Source: a virus. From it: DNA of 21,759 bases. Numbering within the stretch: the first letter of the stretch is position 1; the number at the start of each line of letters is the position of its first letter. The stretch is from positions 1-21,759 of IMG/VR virus record IMGVR_UViG_3300034012_000139; one strand, written 5' to 3'. The notes under the pieces were generated by a model. That model saw nothing but the letters and a program-made list of their open reading frames with translations. It was not told the DNA's origin and ran no database searches. Shown piece by piece: positions 6,268 to 20,065 of this stretch. The translations under genes were made by a program, and so were the position numbers.

Positions 6268-6903
6268 TTAGCTATCCAATGCAACGGCTTGACGGTCACC
6301 CATACGCTGGATGTCTTCGGCTTTCAAGACCTGCATGATCTTGTCGTACTGAGCCTGCCACATCGGTATGCGCTCGTCGTTTTTGAGGAACGGCATAGCC
6401 TGTAACAGAGTCCCATACAGAAGAGCCTGCGGGGCGTAGATGGTGAACCAGTTAACTTGATTAGACGAATCCAAAGGCTGGATGCGCTCGTAGTACAGCA
6501 CCTCAAAGGCGTAGTCATCGTCCGGGGTCGGAGCGATCAGCCAGTGGGTGTAGTCGTAATCTGCGTAGTATTTAGGGGCGTCAGTCTGGGTAGGATTAGG
6601 CCAGTATTCACGCAGGTACTCGTATTTGCGCAGGAATACAGGCTGTCTGACACCGCCTACGGTAACGTTCATAGAGACCGTCTTGTGCCAGCGTGCAGGC
6701 TTATCAATGACCGCCTGATTAGCCACAAGCGTAGACTGCATAGGCGTCAAGTTGCCGAGGAACTTAATCTCAGCAGCGATCACCTGCTCAGCGAGCATGA
6801 TGAACGTAGGAATCTTTTCGAGTGTTGCTTGGTCGGTACGCTCTAAGTAGCTCGAAATGTCAGCTACCAGTGAGTCATACGTCATTACAGCCGCTGTAGT
6901 CAT
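6268..6903 (-). CDS. Head-tail adaptor-like protein (SU10/P22 gp4-type)
   Basis: From ATG 6903 the product is 211 residues. The sequence pattern TYDSLVADISSYLER, then IPTFIMLAEQVIAAEIKFLG, then a central beta region with PVFLRKYEYLREYWPN and FEVLYYERIQPL, and a C-terminal helix pair (PQALLYGTLLQAMPFLKND) is that of phage adaptor proteins. In SU10 and P22-like phages these form a ring between the portal and the tail. A GTG two codons earlier (6909) would add Met-Val, but it is only one or two bases from AAGG. ATG 6903 has AAGG seven bases before it and overlaps the upstream stop as ATGA, the junction used throughout this cluster, so I prefer it. It lies two genes before the gp10-like protein, which fits a portal-proximal neck module. 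Confidence 0.75.
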   Translation of the reverse strand: MTTAAVMTYDSLVADISSYLERTDQATLEKIPTFIMLAEQVIAAEIKFLGNLTPMQSTLVANQAVIDKPARWHKTVSMNVTVGGVRQPVFLRKYEYLREYWPNPTQTDAPKYYADYDYTHWLIAPTPDDDYAFEVLYYERIQPLDSSNQVNWFTIYAPQALLYGTLLQAMPFLKNDERIPMWQAQYDKIMQVLKAEDIQRMGDRQAVALDS

Positions 6904-7295
6904 CACCACACCTTTTTCTTGATAGATTCAGGCTGCGGGACGAATTGCTTGCCTTGTTTAGTACCCTCTCTCTTGGCACGGGTCGTAGCACCGTACTCGG
7001 CAGGAGTTAATTTTTCTCGGGCTTGTTTCGGCAAATATCGTTCGCCTGTCGCCTTAGAACCTTGTGTGGACGGTTTGCCAGACTTTGTACCCCAGTCTTC
7101 TTTTGTCCACTTTGCAAGTGAATTATCTGCCTTTTTGGGGCCTTTGTAACCCCCTCCAGCACCTTTATATTTCTGGGTTGCTAACTGAGCCTTTCTTGCG
7201 CTCCATTCCCCCGGATCACCACCCTTGCCAGAGGCTTTCACCGAAGCAACAATCCGCTTCCATTTAGCGGGATCAGACTTAACGGCGCTGCTCAT
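6903..7295 (-). CDS. DUF5872-like small basic protein
   Basis: 130 residues, strongly basic (many Lys, few acidic clusters). The N-terminal part reads KWKRIVASVKASGKGGDPGE and continues WSARKAQLATQKYKG, a phrase I know from small phage proteins. The C-terminal part, about residues 58-120, has SLAKWTKEDWGTKSGKPS, then ERYLPKQAREKLTPAEYGAT and TRAKREGTKQGKQFV, which matches the DUF5872 pattern. Function of the family is not established; nucleic-acid binding is an inference from charge. Its 5' end overlaps the end of the Rz-like gene by 17 bases, and its stop overlaps the adaptor start, so it is co-translated between the lysis cassette and the neck genes. Confidence 0.75.
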   Translation of the reverse strand: MSSAVKSDPAKWKRIVASVKASGKGGDPGEWSARKAQLATQKYKGAGGGYKGPKKADNSLAKWTKEDWGTKSGKPSTQGSKATGERYLPKQAREKLTPAEYGATTRAKREGTKQGKQFVPQPESIKKKVW

Positions 7296-7758
7296 AGCTC
7301 TGCCTCACTTGGTCGTATTGGGCGTAGCACTGCTTGAGGGCGACTCTGACTTCGTCGGCTTCTCTAGCGATCCGGACAACCACTTCGCTATCCTCTCGGT
7401 AAAGCTCTCGGGCGGTACAGGCACTTGATCCAGCGCCGGAGGGATTGGACACGGTACTGGTTTGGGTGGGGCGCTCCGGCCTGTTGCGCAGGCTGTTAGC
7501 CAAAGCGGTATTACGAGCAACCAAATCACGCGTTTCACGGTCTTTCTCCTGTCTTAGCCTATCTGCACCCATCTGAAGCTGCTGCTGCCGCTCTACGGCT
7601 TCCTGAAGGGCTTTATTATGGGCTTCCTGCTGCTTTAGGCGCTCCGCATCCCACTCGGCGTATACAGCCGCAGAGCCGTCTTTCTCGCCTTTAAAGTAGC
7701 CCCCAGCAGTCGCTATACCGACCGCCAAGACCGCCATCAGGATCATGTAAGGGTTCAT
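7279..7758 (-). CDS. Rz: Rz-like i-spanin (inner-membrane spanin subunit)
   Basis: 159 residues. Residues 1-22 form one N-terminal membrane segment (MNPYMILMAVLAVGIATAGG), followed by a charged, Gln/Glu/Arg-rich region (about 30-95) expected to form a periplasmic coiled coil. A conserved-looking C-terminal part has Cys114 and Cys144. This is the architecture of type II i-spanins, which with an outer-membrane lipoprotein partner fuse the inner and outer membranes in the last step of lysis of Gram-negative hosts. It follows the lysozyme directly with an ATGA overlap (7755-7758), and the partner reading frame lies entirely inside it. Sequence similarity to lambda Rz is weak by eye; the call rests on topology, position and the nested partner. 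Confidence 0.85.
   Translation of the reverse strand: MNPYMILMAVLAVGIATAGGYFKGEKDGSAAVYAEWDAERLKQQEAHNKALQEAVERQQQLQMGADRLRQEKDRETRDLVARNTALANSLRNRPERPTQTSTVSNPSGAGSSACTARELYREDSEVVVRIAREADEVRVALKQCYAQYDQVRQSYEQRR
7305..7538 (-). CDS. Rz1: Rz1-like o-spanin lipoprotein nested inside Rz
   Basis: A 77-residue frame lies wholly within the Rz-like gene in a different reading frame. It begins with GTG 7538 and has AGGAG at 7546-7550, seven bases before the start. The N-terminus is a lipoprotein signal: KR, a hydrophobic run, then lipobox LTAC with Cys17 as the lipidation site. The mature part is short and Pro-rich (RSAPPKPVPCPIPPALDQVP), as in known Rz1 proteins. Outer-membrane lipoprotein o-spanins pair with i-spanins across the periplasm. 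The signal, the Pro content and the good ribosome binding site together make chance unlikely. It implies a Gram-negative host. Confidence 0.85.
   Translation of the reverse strand: MKRVIWLLVIPLWLTACATGRSAPPKPVPCPIPPALDQVPVPPESFTERIAKWLSGSLEKPTKSESPSSSATPNTTK
7546..7550 (-). promoter_or_regulatory. Ribosome binding site of the nested Rz1 gene
   Basis: AGGAG on the minus strand, seven bases upstream of the GTG start at 7538. It lies inside the coding region of the i-spanin gene, so those codons serve two purposes. It is the main evidence for the GTG start of Rz1. Confidence 0.75.
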
Positions 7759-12188: not shown

Positions 12189-12632
12189 TCAATTCAAAAA
12201 TTGTTTGAGCATTGTTCTTATTTGCGTTGCAATTTCATCTGCATGATGGCTAGGAAAGCAAGAGTCAAACTTCTCCGTAATCCGTACATCGTAACGCTCA
12301 GGAGGAACAAACAGCCTGTTCGTATCCTCAAACCTACCCTCTTTGATTCGGTCTACCCAAATCGTAAAGTCAGCACCAAAAGCAGCTCTCGTTTCTGGTG
12401 TAGGGCAAACAAAATCAGCTATTACTACCGCACCCCATCGACTTGCTATGTCACACAATACACCCATACGCCGCGCTTGCTCTAGCCTGTCCTCAACGCT
12501 AAATCCCAAATCCTTGTTGATTTCTCTGCGAACCTCGTCAGCGTTAAAGTGAACACACTGCAACTCCCTCGCCAAAGCATCCGCTAGTGTTGTTTTGCCA
12601 GCACCCGGCAAACCACAAATCAACACCTTCAT
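12189..12632 (-). CDS. APS kinase-like P-loop kinase (CysC-related)
   Basis: 147 residues. Walker A is GLPGAGKTT (residues 7-15). NADEVRREINKDLGFSVEDR (30-49) and LEQARRMG match the region of adenylylsulfate kinases usually written DGDNVR...DLGFS..DR.EN.RR.GE, and VVIADFVCPTPETR matches the AFISP strand. The lid and C-terminus differ: FEDTNRLFVPPERYDVRIT stands where CysC has GLYKKA..G...NFTGID. APS kinase phosphorylates adenylylsulfate to PAPS, the donor for sulfotransferases. The protein is shorter than typical CysC (about 200). It overlaps the sulfotransferase stop by ATGA, so the two are co-translated; this context supports PAPS supply. It could instead be another small-molecule kinase of the same superfamily. 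No ATP sulfurylase gene is in view, so APS would have to come from the host. Confidence 0.75.
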   Translation of the reverse strand: MKVLICGLPGAGKTTLADALARELQCVHFNADEVRREINKDLGFSVEDRLEQARRMGVLCDIASRWGAVVIADFVCPTPETRAAFGADFTIWVDRIKEGRFEDTNRLFVPPERYDVRITEKFDSCFPSHHADEIATQIRTMLKQFLN

Positions 12633-13450
12633 CCTTTAACTTTATACAAACTCTTTACAGAAAAGTCCGGCGTTTCTTTCCTCCAGAACTCTTTGCCAGC
12701 GTACTTGTCCCAAACGGACTTTGGCAGAATAGAAGGACGCTCTTCCCAAGTTACTTTTCTGCGAACCGTATGCAAGCTCTTCATATTCAAGGCTTGGTCA
12801 TACACTTCGTTCTCATATTCAACATTGTCGAAGTCGTGGTCAAAGTAGGGCTTACCAAGGAAGTCGTACACCTTACGCATACTCTCTTCTGGGTTCTTAC
12901 ACAGCCCCTCGTACTCCATCAGGAAAATCATGTCTGGGTTTAGCAACAGACCCTCTTCCAAGAAGTAGTACGGCTTCACAACCTGACCTTCCTTTTTTAC
13001 ATCCATCAGCGCATCACACCGAGTGGTGACTGTCTGACTAGCTTCATCATCAGTCAGCGTGGCGTTGTACAACGTATTCTTGGCGGCTATCCGCTCAAAC
13101 GAATCAAGTATCCAAGGCAGATCACGCACACAGCAAATAATCTTCGTCTGCGGATACAGCGCCTTCAGTAAGGCTGTCTTTGCAGTCCAACCACGGCTTG
13201 TGTCGAACACCGTCTTAGGCTCAACAGCCTCGTAATAAGCATTAAATAACGACCTCAGAATGCCCTTACGACGCTCTTCATCAATCAAATGGTTGCTCTC
13301 ACTGCCTGTAATGACGTTAATGGTTGACCCAACCAATCCCTGTACAGGCGACGATATGTCTGCATAGAACTCAGGGTTCTGACGCAAAATGGCTGACAGC
13401 AGGGTAGACCCCGACCTCGGTAGCCCAGAGATGAAGAAAAACTCTTTCAC
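12629..13450 (-). CDS. Sulfotransferase family protein
   Basis: 273 residues. The 5'-phosphosulfate loop is SGLPRSGSTLL (residues 8-18). The 3'-phosphate-binding region is IICCVRDLPWILDSFERI, with Arg109 and Ser117 in the expected places. MIFLMEYEGLCKNPEESMRK and VYDFLGKPYFDH are usual for bacterial Sulfotransfer_3-type enzymes. They move a sulfuryl group from PAPS to a sugar, lipid or protein hydroxyl; the acceptor cannot be told from sequence. No signal peptide or membrane segment is visible, so it should act in the cytoplasm. It starts with GTG at 13450 in a GTGA overlap and lacks a good Shine-Dalgarno, so coupling to the gene upstream is likely. Lying between tail-fibre genes, it may modify host surface glycans or a virion component; that is inference. 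Confidence 0.88.
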   Translation of the reverse strand: MKEFFFISGLPRSGSTLLSAILRQNPEFYADISSPVQGLVGSTINVITGSESNHLIDEERRKGILRSLFNAYYEAVEPKTVFDTSRGWTAKTALLKALYPQTKIICCVRDLPWILDSFERIAAKNTLYNATLTDDEASQTVTTRCDALMDVKKEGQVVKPYYFLEEGLLLNPDMIFLMEYEGLCKNPEESMRKVYDFLGKPYFDHDFDNVEYENEVYDQALNMKSLHTVRRKVTWEERPSILPKSVWDKYAGKEFWRKETPDFSVKSLYKVKG

Positions 13451-13872
13451 GCCTGTGGAACCCAGCTAAGTGACGCCTCATCCCACTGATACCGCACATT
13501 GCCGCCGTTCATAATTGCGTCTACAGGACGGGCTACAGGGGCGCTCCAACTCATCGTATCTAAGTACCCTATCCATGACGGGTAAGGCTTCGTAGCTTCA
13601 TGCTCTGCCACTCTACGCTCGTTCCAGACGGCTTCTGTTAGGACTTCCAGCACTCCAGCAACGGTAGTGTCGGCATCATCATCACAGGTGCCGTAATACT
13701 TGGGCGCACGGAGGTAAGTGCCATCGGAGGCAAGCTCTACAGGCCATGTAGACTTGTCTTGCCAAATGATCTTCAAACCCTTTACATCAGGCATAGATGG
13801 GCCTGTACGCTGCGGCTCTACCGTGCAAGGAATCTTGGTTGCTGCATCAACTTCTGTGACTACGATGTGCAT
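13447..13872 (-). CDS. Small tail-fibre-associated protein, unknown function
   Basis: 141 residues. The C-terminal half has KPYPSWIGYLDTMSWSAPVA and then YQWDEASLSWVPQA, a style seen in small proteins near tail-fibre genes of cyanophages and other aquatic phages. There is a short acidic stretch (CDDDAD). No enzyme motif, signal or membrane segment. The start ATG 13872 has AAGGAG seven bases upstream. It is set between the lectin-like adhesins and the sulfotransferase and overlaps the latter as GTGA. Role unknown; a fibre-assembly or small structural role is possible. Confidence 0.75.
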   Translation of the reverse strand: MHIVVTEVDAATKIPCTVEPQRTGPSMPDVKGLKIIWQDKSTWPVELASDGTYLRAPKYYGTCDDDADTTVAGVLEVLTEAVWNERRVAEHEATKPYPSWIGYLDTMSWSAPVARPVDAIMNGGNVRYQWDEASLSWVPQA

Positions 13873-15894: not shown

Positions 15895-16374
15895 TTATAG
15901 TCCGAAGATCATTGCGAAAGCGATGGACTGGCCTTTAGATACACCCGATGGCGCGGGTGCAGTAGATGTCCAAGTCGTGCCGTTAGAAGTCAACACGTTG
16001 CCATTCGTTCCCGGAGCAACGAACTGAACCGCGCTTGTACCATTACCTAGAACGACGTTGTTTGATGTCAGCGACGTCTGACCTGTCCCGCCTTGCGCCA
16101 CCGTGACAGTTGCTGCCTGCTTGACTAGCTTGCCCGTCGTTCCGTCAAACGCCACTAGCGCGTCAGCGGTCGCCGAAGCAGGGCCTACAACATCTCCAGA
16201 GGCTCCAGACGCAGAAGCTAGTAGCGTGACAACCCCTGAAGAGTTCTCACAGTACAACTTCATGTCGTTGATGTTCAGCGCTAATTCACCGGGCGACAGA
16301 TTGCCTGCTGTAGGCACCGCAGAGGCGGTTGTGCTGTGATAAGTAACAATTGGAGTAAAGCCTGCCTGTGCCAT
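15895..16374 (-). CDS. Small tail-fibre protein with GGTGQT repeat
   Basis: 159 residues. The N-terminus (PIVTYHSTTASAVPTAGNLS, PGELALNINDMKLYCEN) is a common start of phage tail-fibre or head-fibre proteins, where a short beta unit precedes a stalk. A stalk repeat follows: VAQGGTGQTSLTSNNVVLGN and TNGNVLTSNGTTWTSTAPAP. It ends GQSIAFAMIFGL. ATG 16374 overlaps the stop of the long fibre as TAATG, and GGAGGT lies eight bases upstream inside the last codons of that fibre. Probably a short fibre or a companion of the long one. Confidence 0.78.
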   Translation of the reverse strand: MAQAGFTPIVTYHSTTASAVPTAGNLSPGELALNINDMKLYCENSSGVVTLLASASGASGDVVGPASATADALVAFDGTTGKLVKQAATVTVAQGGTGQTSLTSNNVVLGNGTSAVQFVAPGTNGNVLTSNGTTWTSTAPAPSGVSKGQSIAFAMIFGL

Positions 16375-18662
16375 TAGAATGTACCTCCAGAGATCCCAGC
16401 CGTCGCTACGACCGTTCCCGTTGTCAAAGTATTAGTAGAAGGGTTATACGTCATGTCGGAATCTACGCACACGCCATTACTACCCGAAGTGGCTGGCATA
16501 AACGCCATGTAATAAGTAGCGTTTGCAGTGACCGCCGTGGTCGTAACATTCGCCGCATTTCCTACATCTAGCGTCGATTGGGCTACATAAGCGGGTGCCG
16601 CAAGTCCTGCTGCCAACACATACCCATTAGTGCCTAGCCCTAACTTAGATAGTGTCGCTGTTCCGCTGGCATAAATAATATCCCCAGCAGCGTAGGAAGT
16701 CAGCCCTGTGCCGCCGTAAGCAACGCCTATCGTGGTGGCGTTCCAAGTTCCCGCAGTCAGCGTACCAACCCCAGTGATCCCGGTATATGAACCGCTGATA
16801 CGCGCCGAATCAACCGTGCCAGACGTAATCTGGTTTGCGTCAATCGCAATCGAAGTATTGACCGCGGTGGTGATCTGCCCTTGAGCATTTACCCCAATAA
16901 CTGGAACCTGCGATGCCGACCCATAAGTCGCTGCACCAACTCCAGTTGTCGCAATATTGAAGGTGTACGCAGGCGACTCGTTCAAGCCTGTGCCTGCGCT
17001 GTAAGTCAGCGGCGCACCGAACTGGCTGAAGACGATCCCTGTAGTGCCTACAATGATAGGCAGGGGTGTCTGCTGTACCCACGAGGTATTCGCGTTTGCA
17101 GTACCCGAAGTAATCAGGAAGAAGTCACCCTGATCGATCTGGTCAACCCCTGTTCCTGATGTATCAAAGTCAGTCGCACGGATCAGAATAAAAGGTAATC
17201 CAGCATCGCCAGCCTGAGATAGCGTATAGACACCGTTCTCAAGCGTTGCCGCCTGATTTTTGATCAGTATCCGAGTACCGTTATCCGCAGGCGAAGTGAA
17301 CGTATAGCCATCAACCGTCAATGCACCGTTAGCATTTGCAGTCAGCGTCGCACCCACACCGCCTGTGCCGTTCGCATAGGTAACCGCAGGCAGCGCTGTG
17401 GTCGTTGCGTATTTGCAGGACTGGTGGAAGTTGATGCCCGAGGCTATCGAATCGGCGTAGGTCTTATTGACGATGTCGTTGCCAGTAGACGGTGGAGTGG
17501 TAATCGTCCCAGAAGTCATTGCGACCGACGTAAACGTACCAGCCGCAGGCGTCGTGCCGCCTATTGTCGCGCCATCTATTGCGCCACCCGTGATTGCAAC
17601 CGATGAGGCCGCTTGGGTAGACATCGTGCCAAGACCTGTGATGTCGGTATTCGGGATCGTGGCGCTTGCCGTTAGAGCGCTTGACCCAGTGCCTTTGACG
17701 TAACCCGTCAAACTATTAGCTCCGGTGCCGCCATTTGCAACTGCAAGTGTGCCACCCAGTGTCAGCGTTCCGCTTGCGGTGATCGGGCCACCAGAGAAAG
17801 TCATCCCTGTAGTGCCACCAGAGGCATTTACCGAAGTAACCGTACCAGCGCCTGCAAGTGCACCCCAGACAAAGGCTGAGCCATTCCACCGCAGATAAGT
17901 GTCGGTAACCGTTGGCGCAGATACAAAATCAGTTGTGTTTACAGCGCTCTGATACAGAAGCTGATTCGGGCTACCGCCGAGGATATTCGCTACAGCCGTC
18001 ACGGTAACGTCTGTTGCCGAAGTGATACGGCCTGTGGCGTCTACCGTAATCTGGGCGACTTGACTGCCCGAGCCATAAGTTCCCGGCGATACCCCCGTGA
18101 CATCTAAGCTGATCGTCGGGTTACCAGACAGGCCGTTGCCATTAGTGACAACAATCTCGCCAGCCGTGCCAGCAATCTGTACTGAGCCAACGCTTGAGCC
18201 GTTTTGAAGGGTCAGAAGACCAGACCCAGCAAGGCCATTTATAGAGCCTACAGCGCCCGTTAGAGAAATTACAGGGTTACCTGCCACCCCATCACCATTC
18301 GTGACCGCAACGCCCGTTCCAGAGCCTGTAAGCGTCCTTCCTACAACCGTATTGCCGCTGGTCTTGGCAATCATCCCATTAGTGGACGTTTCAAGGCTTC
18401 CAGAAGCCCCGTTCAGGATGATTGAGATCGTACCCAGAGCGCCCGTATCCGTCAGCCCTACGCCCGTACCACCCTGCAATCTGCGGGAGTTAGGTAACGT
18501 AGACTCGGCGTTAACAGTAATGAACGTCTGCTGTTGGGTTGGCGAATTAGCAATTGCCGCGACGGTCGTCTGTACCGTCTGCCCGTTCTGGCTAATCGGC
18601 ACCGACTCCGTGCCAGTCAACGACTGGGCGGCGGGGAGTTGTGTGATCGTTACTTGCGCCAA
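16374..18662 (-). CDS. Long tail fibre protein, Gly/Thr-rich beta repeats
   Basis: 762 residues, with TTG 18662 as the best start: GGGG lies about seven bases upstream. The first 38 residues (ITQLPAAQSLTGTESVPISQ and on) match the N-terminus of the protein at 20875-21456. A long repetitive stalk follows, with GTYGSGSQVAQITVDATGRI (194-213) echoed by ATYGSASQVPVIGVNAQGQI (578-597), and two NGGTG/YGGTG motifs. About residues 395-548 form a known tail-fibre module (NDIVNKTYADSIASGINFHQ, then NGTRILIKNQAATLENGVYT and ILIRATDFDTSGTG). It ends GISGGTF. These features fit a trimeric fibre for host attachment. Very low charge and long Gly/Ala/Thr/Ser runs agree. Confidence 0.83.
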   Translation of the reverse strand: MAQVTITQLPAAQSLTGTESVPISQNGQTVQTTVAAIANSPTQQQTFITVNAESTLPNSRRLQGGTGVGLTDTGALGTISIILNGASGSLETSTNGMIAKTSGNTVVGRTLTGSGTGVAVTNGDGVAGNPVISLTGAVGSINGLAGSGLLTLQNGSSVGSVQIAGTAGEIVVTNGNGLSGNPTISLDVTGVSPGTYGSGSQVAQITVDATGRITSATDVTVTAVANILGGSPNQLLYQSAVNTTDFVSAPTVTDTYLRWNGSAFVWGALAGAGTVTSVNASGGTTGMTFSGGPITASGTLTLGGTLAVANGGTGANSLTGYVKGTGSSALTASATIPNTDITGLGTMSTQAASSVAITGGAIDGATIGGTTPAAGTFTSVAMTSGTITTPPSTGNDIVNKTYADSIASGINFHQSCKYATTTALPAVTYANGTGGVGATLTANANGALTVDGYTFTSPADNGTRILIKNQAATLENGVYTLSQAGDAGLPFILIRATDFDTSGTGVDQIDQGDFFLITSGTANANTSWVQQTPLPIIVGTTGIVFSQFGAPLTYSAGTGLNESPAYTFNIATTGVGAATYGSASQVPVIGVNAQGQITTAVNTSIAIDANQITSGTVDSARISGSYTGITGVGTLTAGTWNATTIGVAYGGTGLTSYAAGDIIYASGTATLSKLGLGTNGYVLAAGLAAPAYVAQSTLDVGNAANVTTTAVTANATYYMAFMPATSGSNGVCVDSDMTYNPSTNTLTTGTVVATAGISGGTF
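16383..16388 (-). promoter_or_regulatory. Ribosome binding site within the GISGGTF codons of the long fibre
   Basis: GGAGGT on the minus strand, formed by the Gly-Gly codons of the terminal GISGGTF peptide, eight bases before ATG 16374. The related peptide ending the 5039-6265 gene places GGCGGG (5051-5056) at the same distance from ATG 5042. Confidence 0.65.
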
Positions 18663-19006: not shown

Positions 19007-20065
19007 TTACCTAGAATAAACAGAAATATTCGGCGCGAGGTACACAGGCGACTTGTCGCGCTCTTCAGCCTGAGCCAAACCTAAGTATTTCTCAGCCTGC
19101 ATCTCTAAATACTGAATCCGCTGCATATCAATACCCGGCAGCTCCATCGACATCTGATGCGCCAGCATGTTCTGAATCGCCAAGTACCAGCGGTCAGGGA
19201 TCTCTAGCTGCCCATCTAAGGCACCCACATCCATGATCTGACGCGAGTAGTACACAACGATCTGAACAAACGGATCGCTTGGCACAGGCCATAAGTTGAT
19301 CTCAGCTCGGGGAATAGTACGGTTGAACCAGAATTGATACGGCTGGTTCGCAGTAAAGTTCTTGTTTGGCAGCGAGACATAGTCATCGCGGTTTAGACGC
19401 GCCATCGGGACTTCTCGGCTGTTATTGCCGACGTAGAACTCACGAACCTGCAACGTGTTACCGCCGGTCTCGCGCATACGGTAATACTGCTTACTAGCAC
19501 CCGGATCAATCTGATACCAGAGCCACTCGTTATCGACCCAAGTTTCTACTCCGGTGTCTTCGAGTAACGTCCACGTTGAACCATCACTGGAGGTTTCAAA
19601 AAGGATGTGAAAACTTCCTGACACTCCCGGAAGAATACCAATAGAGCCAGCGTACACAGGGTTATTAGTGCCATAGTTCACCGAAATGTTGCCGTTAGGG
19701 GATGTTTGCACGCAAACAGTGTTGATGTTGCTGTCAAAAGCGTTGGCTGCTATGCCAGAAGACGCAGAATAGCTGCCAGAAGGGCGCTCCATCGTGCGAT
19801 AGTTGGCATTTAGGACGTCAATACCGCCTACAGGCAGGTAATAAATGTACTGATCGGCCTTCAGACCGATAACTTCTTGCCCAATAGCCCAATAATTGAT
19901 GCCAATGTTGGCTAGATTGGACAGAAGATAGAAAAGAGACTGCTTGGCAGAGTAAATTTGCTCGGAAGTCAGCTCTTCAGCCAACTTACCAGAGCGTCGG
20001 GCTCCGTGGTCGATCAAATCCTGTACTTGGATGACAGTCTGACCGATAGTTCCAGAGTAAGCCAT
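19007..20065 (-). CDS. Adaptor/tail-tube-like protein with inserted discoidin-like domain
   Basis: 352 residues. The outer parts look like a phage neck protein: N-terminal helices (VQDLIDHGARRSGKLAEELT, SAKQSLFYLLSNLANIGINY) and C-terminal EINLWPVPSDPFVQIVVYYS, LEIPDRWYLAIQNMLAHQMS and PGIDMQRIQYLEMQAEKYLG. This order is that of P22 gp4-like or SU10-like adaptors. Residues 93-215 are set into the middle and read like a discoidin/F5-8 C domain (AFDSNINTVCVQTSPNG, GSIGILPGVSGSFHILFETS, QYYRMRETGGNTLQVREFYV). Such domains bind carbohydrates or lipids elsewhere; here it could decorate the neck or be structural. ATG 20065; the stop lies two bases before the next gene. A second adaptor-like gene is at 6268-6903. 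Confidence 0.72.
   Translation of the reverse strand: MAYSGTIGQTVIQVQDLIDHGARRSGKLAEELTSEQIYSAKQSLFYLLSNLANIGINYWAIGQEVIGLKADQYIYYLPVGGIDVLNANYRTMERPSGSYSASSGIAANAFDSNINTVCVQTSPNGNISVNYGTNNPVYAGSIGILPGVSGSFHILFETSSDGSTWTLLEDTGVETWVDNEWLWYQIDPGASKQYYRMRETGGNTLQVREFYVGNNSREVPMARLNRDDYVSLPNKNFTANQPYQFWFNRTIPRAEINLWPVPSDPFVQIVVYYSRQIMDVGALDGQLEIPDRWYLAIQNMLAHQMSMELPGIDMQRIQYLEMQAEKYLGLAQAEERDKSPVYLAPNISVYSR

Follow-up and report, generated by a model that had tools for sequence, protein, structure and literature searches.

The stretch of viral DNA considered here, positions 1 to 21,759 of the IMG/VR record IMGVR_UViG_3300034012_000139 (its full length of 21,759 nucleotides is called the window), carries on the minus strand, within its tail-fibre gene region, a sulfotransferase gene and the gene of a short P-loop kinase that resembles kinases of adenosine 5'-phosphosulfate (APS). 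The stop codon of the sulfotransferase gene and the start codon of the kinase gene share an ATGA overlap of 4 nt at 12629-12632, where the junction reads AAAGGATGAAGG, and the coupling described in an earlier note on this DNA is thus real. Beyond that note, the GTG start of the sulfotransferase lies in a GTGA overlap (13447-13450) with the stop codon of a gene for a protein of 141 amino acids (aa), and because the two overlaps join the 141-aa gene, the sulfotransferase and the kinase, the unit is one of three overlapping genes and not of two. In the order of transcription, the unit is preceded by a repetitive fibre-like gene, two small genes and two Lcl_C genes, and is followed by a DUF7483 fibre gene, which begins 9 nt past the kinase stop, and by the gene of a tail-fibre-assembly chaperone, in agreement with the tail-fibre setting that had been ascribed to the pair. 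This freshwater-type phage has a conserved, apparently movable sulfation cassette in its fibre region, the chemistry of which is predicted from the protein families with good support, and the explanation towards which the evidence leans is a minimal sulfation unit inside a receptor-binding cassette that would make 3'-phosphoadenosine 5'-phosphosulfate (PAPS) and sulfate the phage's own fibre module, be it a protein or a glycan.

The sulfotransferase scores above the Pfam cut-offs of Sulfotransfer_3 (6.9e-19; 69.4 bits, cut-off 27) and Sulfotransfer_1 (1.2e-11), and the PAPS-binding motifs 5'-PSB and 3'-PB that had been recognized in it are well conserved, with R12, R109 and S117 kept in 34/34 sulfotransferases and the other key residues of the motifs invariant or nearly so. 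The top matches of its predicted structure (pLDDT 91, pTM 0.87; Foldseek, VIA) are the tyrosylprotein sulfotransferases TPST1/TPST2 (Z 20.1, 230 aligned, root-mean-square deviation (rmsd) 3.3), of which the human and tick enzymes are nearest (Z 20.1-19.2), and polyketide sulfotransferase domains (16.9 for CurM, 16.3), heparan 3-OST (14.5) and SULT (13.0) come lower. The sulfotransferase profile also matches a tyrosylprotein sulfotransferase (2.8e-12).

For the kinase, the best Pfam family is APS_kinase with 59.7 bits (cut-off 21.1), matched over residues 3-84 only, the second family is AAA_33 (7.8e-11), and each of the six top NCBIfam models describes an APS kinase or a bifunctional enzyme containing one, with scores far under the cut-offs. 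Of the P-loop residues, G7, L8, P9, G10, G12 and K13 are invariant in the kinase alignment A1, and T14 and T15 are kept in at least 90%. In the CysC of Mycobacterium tuberculosis, the core contacts to APS are made by Asp480, Arg483, Phe492 and Arg497, further contacts by main-chain atoms of Ile523 and Ser524 together with the lid residues Lys562 and Phe576, and the lid residue Arg559 stacks on the adenine of ATP (PMC4373884, which, like all PMC articles below, is cited for excerpts of its text). The counterparts of the four core residues are D32, R35, F44 and R49 of the window kinase, and their columns are invariant in 36/36 diverse relatives in which the kinase is fused to an adenylyltransferase-like domain (alignment A3); in alignment A1, F44 is nearly invariant, being absent from L065. 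In one alignment with E. coli CysC, R100 and F101 align with the lid residues Arg559 and Phe576, and at these positions the fused relatives have R in 33/36 and F or Y in 36/36. The fold was compared using the model of a fused relative, L067, which shares 55% identity with the window kinase (pLDDT 89, pTM 0.68), and this model is nearest to APS-kinase domains, namely to the kinase-like domain of a fungal ATP sulfurylase (Z 19.2) and to the true APS kinase 7yq0 (Z 19.1, 138 aligned, rmsd 1.9), with gluconokinases next in line (Z 16.5). With APS kinases as best matches and the core contacts kept, the protein can be filed as putatively APS-kinase-like, as had been suggested, albeit below the score of the equivalog model. 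A role as a host-takeover or DNA kinase was also considered and rejected, since T4 polynucleotide kinase first appears at rank 50 among the matches listed, with 14% identity.

Relatives of both genes were taken from IMG/VR, namely the best 80 of 573 kinase stretches and the best 80 of 171 sulfotransferase stretches. The 80 sulfotransferase loci are 83-100% identical to that of the window and are thus close kin and not independent (L082 has the same proteins at 100%). The kinase gene follows on the same strand, at a distance of less than 300 nt, in 79/79 of these loci that have DNA left downstream, while the contig of the 80th ends 95 nt past the gene; a mere chance neighbourhood of the two genes is ruled out by this pairing among close relatives, and the co-occurrence in related phages on which the earlier note had made its case depend is found wherever it can be decided in the close lineage. 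Upstream, the 141-aa gene is present in 78/80 loci and an Lcl_C relative lies within 2.5 kb in 75/75 loci having more than 1.5 kb of upstream DNA. The downstream genes vary widely, which is why the cassette looks like a movable block. Among the 79 kinases adjoining a sulfotransferase, 47 are kinase-adenylyltransferase fusions, 29 are short and 3 are cut. Between cassettes with short and with fused kinases (67 of the 79 pairs were compared, 12 with an aligned kinase stretch of less than 100 aa being left out), the sulfotransferases are 91.0% identical, whereas the kinases have a mean identity of 51.5%; the slot beside the sulfotransferase is thus refilled from within the kinase family by a distantly related member, as is expected if the kinase product matters. 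Viewed from the 80 kinase loci, 43 have an adjacent sulfotransferase, 17 have a longer one of 524-608 aa on the upstream side at 0.4-3.4 kb, and the loci of the other 20 contain none. When the whole records of 37 kinases without an adjacent sulfotransferase and of two named phages were searched, 28/39 had a Sulfotransfer_3 match, 18 of them over the cut-off. A separate adenylyltransferase was found in 0/17 short-kinase records, which are possibly incomplete, and 4/4 fused records searched alongside gave a match.

The pair also occurs outside this lineage. The kinase alignment as query gave 66 new loci, 12 of which hold a sulfotransferase by our own profiles, which are narrower than those of Pfam, and 7 of these 12 lie outside the window lineage. 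In 6 of the 7, the two genes are immediate neighbours, in one case on opposite strands, which has a p of about 0.0002 against random gene positions inside the same loci, several of the 7 being close kin. In two further loci (L368:5995-8550 and L372:751-3342), a sulfotransferase is followed by two tandem kinase-profile genes, of which one includes a fused adenylyltransferase-like domain. In the large phages L073 (5992-7456) and L066 (5989-7419), the kinase, a separate adenylyltransferase-like gene and a gene whose product of 204-210 aa matches Sulfotransfer_3 below the threshold (3e-4 and 5e-3) form an overlapping or abutting run. The kinase family is present in Alphaproteobacteria as well (best 80 of 406 matches): in Bradyrhizobium uaiense, two TPR-sulfotransferases are followed by a kinase-adenylyltransferase fusion, and in a Rhizobiales metagenome-assembled genome, a TPR-sulfotransferase precedes a short kinase. 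In bacterial loci other than those of SAR11, the kinase was kept by the gene caller in 10/17; a sulfotransferase is present in the locus of 3 of the 10, in two cases as a neighbour. A record titled Candidatus Woesebacteria (L235, NZCP01000010.1), which is possibly misbinned or viral, holds a kinase fusion 66% identical to the kinase of the window.

According to the favoured explanation, the kinase would turn host APS into PAPS by phosphorylation, and the sulfotransferase, coupled to it in translation, would use the PAPS on the spot. Such a synthesis and immediate use of PAPS had been proposed in the earlier note, and as predicted chemistry the proposal is supported by the families and the core contacts, while the lid contact of Lys562 has no counterpart. 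As the unit travels, among tail genes, in a receptor-binding cassette of Lcl_C fibre protein, 141-aa protein, sulfotransferase and kinase, the likeliest acceptor would be a protein or a protein-bound glycan of the fibre module, which would receive its sulfate in the cytoplasm while the virion is being assembled or earlier, presumably upon late expression of the unit. The earlier note had allowed for a host surface glycan or a virion part as target, and the fibre linkage together with the TPST-like fold of the model tilts this towards the virion; a fibre-borne acceptor best accounts for the fibre linkage and the cytoplasmic cofactor, with a host glycan as the main rival. In MW202545.1, the best-matching complete phage record (circular, 57 kb), a gene annotated as endo-N-acetylneuraminidase sits at the collinear place of the cassette (L307:23967-26450), with a tail-fibre gene on one side and the lysis genes on the other, and therefore the cassette seems to take the place of a receptor-binding protein. 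The 141-aa protein is probably a fibre accessory. Its Tyr 53, 59 and 60 are found in 97-99% of 73 unique copies, and the stretch KYYGTCDDDAD is conserved. Tyr59-Tyr60 precede the acidic run in this stretch (GTCDDDAD) and are no more than a candidate sulfation site; an acidic tyrosine context in the sense of a net acidic 2 or more within +/-5 residues is found neither in the two Lcl_C proteins nor in the 141-aa protein. Lcl_C is a domain of the Legionella adhesin Lcl, a binder of sulfated glycosaminoglycans with a fold like that of C-type lectins (PMC11162425), and the link that this analogy offers between phage Lcl_C and sulfated glycans may be a coincidence.

Several results weigh against a dedicated sulfation unit for the fibre, and they concern the kinase, the pairing and the acceptor. 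The NCBIfam equivalog model apsK gives the kinase 57.4 bits with a cut-off of 138.7. An alignment with E. coli CysC gives the window kinase a lid with 19 residues fewer, and the position of CysC Lys562 falls in the resulting gap. After the DR motif, the window kinase has a Gln where E. coli CysC and human PAPSS1 have an Asn. The pairing is strict in the window lineage and looser elsewhere. Of 31 distant kinase records, drawn from the 54 new kinase loci without a sulfotransferase by our own profiles, only 6 have a Sulfotransfer_3 match in the whole record, 2 of them over the cut-off, and there is no such match in the whole records of the named Stenotrophomonas and Clavibacter phages with fused kinases. 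Conversely, in 35 further loci obtained with the sulfotransferase alignment (L338-L372), a kinase lies within 6 kb in 12. The whole records of 22 of the other 23 have 0 APS_kinase matches, L347, a piece of the near lineage cut off by the end of its contig, being left out, and in L361 the gene caller kept no sulfotransferase. Neither is there an APS_kinase match in a further seven phage records that hold a related sulfotransferase, including S-SKS1, S-SRM01 and S-SCSM1. Where the kinase is missing, a phage would depend on PAPS from its host. Finally, 63 loci of the Pelagibacter type (L244-L306) have no sulfotransferase near the kinase by our own profiles.

In the loci of this last type, the kinase adjoins an adenylyltransferase-like gene in 49 (e.g. 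L245:5992-6773), is fused to it in 3 and lies one or a few genes apart in 8. In 17 Pelagibacter-type genomes, which were chosen because they hold the kinase and may be incomplete, Sulfotransfer_3 is found in 13 (12 over the cut-off) and the family kinase is the only APS_kinase match in 14. Since these genomes have sulfotransferases, yet CysD in 0 and an ATP-sulfurylase in 1 (16/17 have neither), the kinase with its adenylyltransferase-like neighbour is the only PAPS route visible in them, in which case the neighbour would act as an ATP sulfurylase. The sequence of the fused domain, which the window kinase lacks, gives about 19-23 bits with Pfam CTP_transf_like (cut-off 21), with no ATP-sulfurylase listed for the five proteins, and its profile matches nicotinamide mononucleotide (NMN) adenylyltransferases (1.6e-9); ATP sulfurylases occur in the fold list only via chains that also hold an APS-kinase domain, and the fused domain is hardly covered there. 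The kinase could accordingly be seen as another small-molecule kinase, for instance of a riboside or a sugar, which in its fused form, with an NMN adenylyltransferase (NMNAT)-like domain, would serve NAD or sugar-nucleotide synthesis, the sulfotransferase using host PAPS. The differing lid, the closeness of the gluconokinase fold (Z 16.5), the similarity of the fused domain to NMN adenylyltransferases and the lack of a Sulfotransfer_3 match in 25/31 distant kinase records would suit such a role, but the sulfotransferase pairing is strict in the lineage, the APS-contact residues are invariant, NadD is already present in 14/17 of the Pelagibacter-type genomes (12 over the cut-off), so that the NMNAT role is mostly covered, and most of these possibly incomplete genomes combine a sulfotransferase with the lack of CysD and ATP-sulfurylase, which makes this alternative distinctly unlikely. 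A much wider proposition would be that the phages sulfate their own receptor-binding tyrosines or a fibre glycan by a dedicated PAPS unit and that, in addition, the adenylyltransferase-like domain is a third kind of ATP sulfurylase, which with the kinase forms a small self-sufficient PAPS synthase; in this full form, it is a tentative possibility.

As to the acceptor, the catalytic Glu of TPST, which we take to be the one that follows the 5'-PSB, aligns to S33 of the sulfotransferase, a position that is mostly S, T or A in the relatives (nearby position 31 is D in 16/34 and E in 4/34), and no invariant His or Glu lies between the two PAPS motifs in the 34 sulfotransferases, and the acceptor is therefore not readable from the sequence. 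To our knowledge, few structures of this sulfotransferase family have been solved, and hence the nearness to TPST says little in favour of a protein acceptor. Polysaccharides are common substrates of sulfotransferases, and the pair might sulfate a glycan of the host envelope (lipopolysaccharide or capsule) late in infection and thereby mask the receptor on the dying cell and its debris from progeny and competitors. A second cassette type (L009:1509-8620 and relatives) is of interest in this regard. By eye, it encodes a sulfotransferase of about 590 aa with a GT9 heptosyltransferase-like C-terminal half and RCC1-like repeat fibre proteins, then the kinase and genes that are read from their Pfam matches as HldE-like and HldD-like (CTP_transf_like 3e-18, PfkB 2e-16, Epimerase 1e-27), and the gene before the kinase can be a GT25 (4e-15, L060) or a methyltransferase (4e-8, L018). 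The heptose-synthesis-like, GT25 or methyltransferase genes beside the kinase suggest a glycan as acceptor in this cassette type, and the sulfotransferase of S-SRM01 likewise lies among glycosyltransferase and nucleotide-sugar epimerase genes. In the window, however, the Pfam scan reveals no glycosyltransferase among the 26 open reading frames (ORFs) that it covered, the sulfotransferase model is nearer to TPST than to heparan sulfotransferases, and the pair is tied to fibre genes in spite of differing downstream genes, and sulfation of a host glycan by this pair is thus considered rather unlikely.

Two other roles have been connected with such genes in phages. Sulfotransferase-based nucleotide modification is mentioned in PMC10829341, citing Iyer et al. 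2013, and the pair might phosphorylate and sulfate modified DNA bases; this is very improbable, as the Pfam scan of the 26 window ORFs finds no base-modification enzyme, Thymidylat_synt, which includes base hydroxymethylases, occurs in 1/13 records of the lineage (all possibly incomplete), and the pair sits in a fibre cassette. Least credible of all is an auxiliary metabolic cysC that feeds assimilatory sulfate reduction for cysteine during infection, which is how aquatic phage cysC is read in PMC10914622, PMC12713726, PMC9611531 and PMC8066274: the partner of the kinase is a sulfotransferase and not a reductase, the place is a fibre cassette, and the same scan finds no PAPS reductase or sulfite reductase.

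Table 1. Features of the sulfation cassette and its neighbours in the window (aa, amino acids)
Feature	Position	Strand	Matches
Long repetitive fibre-like protein	16374-18662	minus	no Pfam match
fn3 and Lcl_C fibre protein, 308 aa	14569-15495	minus	PF07603 6e-11, fn3 6.5e-10
Lcl_C-domain fibre protein, 224 aa	13884-14558	minus	PF07603 3.7e-10
141-aa cassette protein	13447-13872	minus	weak phrog_7759 match, no Pfam match
Sulfotransferase, 273 aa	12629-13450	minus	Sulfotransfer_3 6.9e-19; phrog_27463 1e-50 (PHROG 27463)
5'-PSB motif GLPRSGST, sulfotransferase residues 9-16	13403-13426	minus	
3'-PB motif R109...S117 of sulfotransferase	13100-13126	minus	
Short APS-kinase-like P-loop kinase, 147 aa	12189-12632	minus	Pfam APS_kinase 4.4e-16; phrog_10255 'kinase' 6.5e-35
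Kinase P-loop GLPGAGKTT, residues 7-15	12588-12614	minus	
Putative APS-site stretch of kinase NADEVRREINKDLGFSVEDR, residues 30-49 (D32, R35, F44, R49)	12486-12545	minus	
Tail fibre/virion protein with DUF7483, 687 aa	10116-12179	minus	PF24299 5.5e-90; phrog_24898 tail fiber protein 5.1e-67
Tail-fibre-assembly chaperone, 162 aa	9613-10101	minus	Phage_tail_APC 5.9e-23

The genes past the chaperone include a phage lysozyme and an SU10-type adaptor (Table 1 ends at the chaperone). Two proteins of the window resemble the SU10 adaptor family, encoded at 19007-20065 (4e-4, below the cut-off) and 6268-6909 (2e-27). By eye, an Rz-like spanin gene is seen at 7279-7758 with an Rz1-like lipoprotein ORF (7305-7538) nested in another frame, neither with a Pfam match over the cut-off. 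Two promoter-like sites compare with 8.9 in shuffles, and 7 terminator-like sites with 5.7. As the structural proteins match those of phage MW202545.1 (71.9% for the tail adaptor) and, more distantly, those of Caulobacter phages, the host is probably alphaproteobacterial.

We know of no sulfated phage receptor-binding module described before, and if the virion is the target, the module would be the first one known. Sulfation of a fibre protein or of a surface sugar by such a pair would be a novel means by which a virus modifies its own surface or that of its host. It would also supply a function for phage sulfotransferases, which are found in two OM43-phage-like genomes and whose function has been called unclear (PMC10580990). 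The 62 cysC genes in 7,334 freshwater phage genomes have been read as assimilatory sulfate reduction (PMC10914622, in the excerpted main text of which the word sulfotransferase was not found), and phage cysC is likewise listed, without a sulfotransferase, in the respective parts of PMC12713726, PMC9611531 and PMC8066274; some phage cysC that are counted as sulfur-assimilation genes may instead belong to sulfation units. A viral sulfotransferase is listed in PMC8290583. Few TPST genes are found in bacteria, and unpublished observations often place them beside genes of extracytoplasmic proteins (PMC9372746). The excerpts of PMC10434257 and PMC13299392 contain nothing on the kinase-sulfotransferase pair, and neither the pair nor a virion sulfation was found described in the excerpted open-licence literature of PubMed Central. 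The kinase with its partner domain, in turn, offers a testable answer to how SAR11 could make PAPS.

Compared with known systems, the window kinase has the P-loop, the DxxR, the DLGFS..DR stretch and the overall fold in common with canonical APS kinases (CysC and the kinase domain of PAPSS), but differs in the lid that is shorter by 19 residues and has no counterpart of Lys562, and in its score under the NCBIfam apsK cut-off. Rhizobial NodPQ-NodH resembles the pair in that the enzymes of PAPS synthesis stand together with a sulfotransferase whose substrate is a surface-active molecule, but NodPQ is a full ATP sulfurylase and APS kinase and the system acts on a lipochitooligosaccharide, whereas the window has a lone kinase of 147 aa in a phage fibre cassette. 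The sulfotransferases of cyanophages and marine phages (S-SKS1, S-SRM01, S-SCSM1) are related, with 25-33% identity in ten phage records, and differ in that 7 distinct records have no APS_kinase match. In Xanthomonas, RaxST sulfates a tyrosine of RaxX with PAPS from the core enzymes RaxP/RaxQ, and it is a cytoplasmic bacterial sulfotransferase, modelled on TPST2, that needs a PAPS supply and whose product acts outside the cell, much as would be expected of the window enzyme, but RaxST is cellular, has a peptide substrate and export genes, and draws its PAPS from enzymes of the core genome that are encoded at another place (PMC6637879). In the window sulfotransferase, no matching catalytic residue was seen. 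Phage sulfotransferases and phage cysC have been known separately, and the known kind of system to which the cassette would belong is that of a sulfotransferase with its own PAPS supply.

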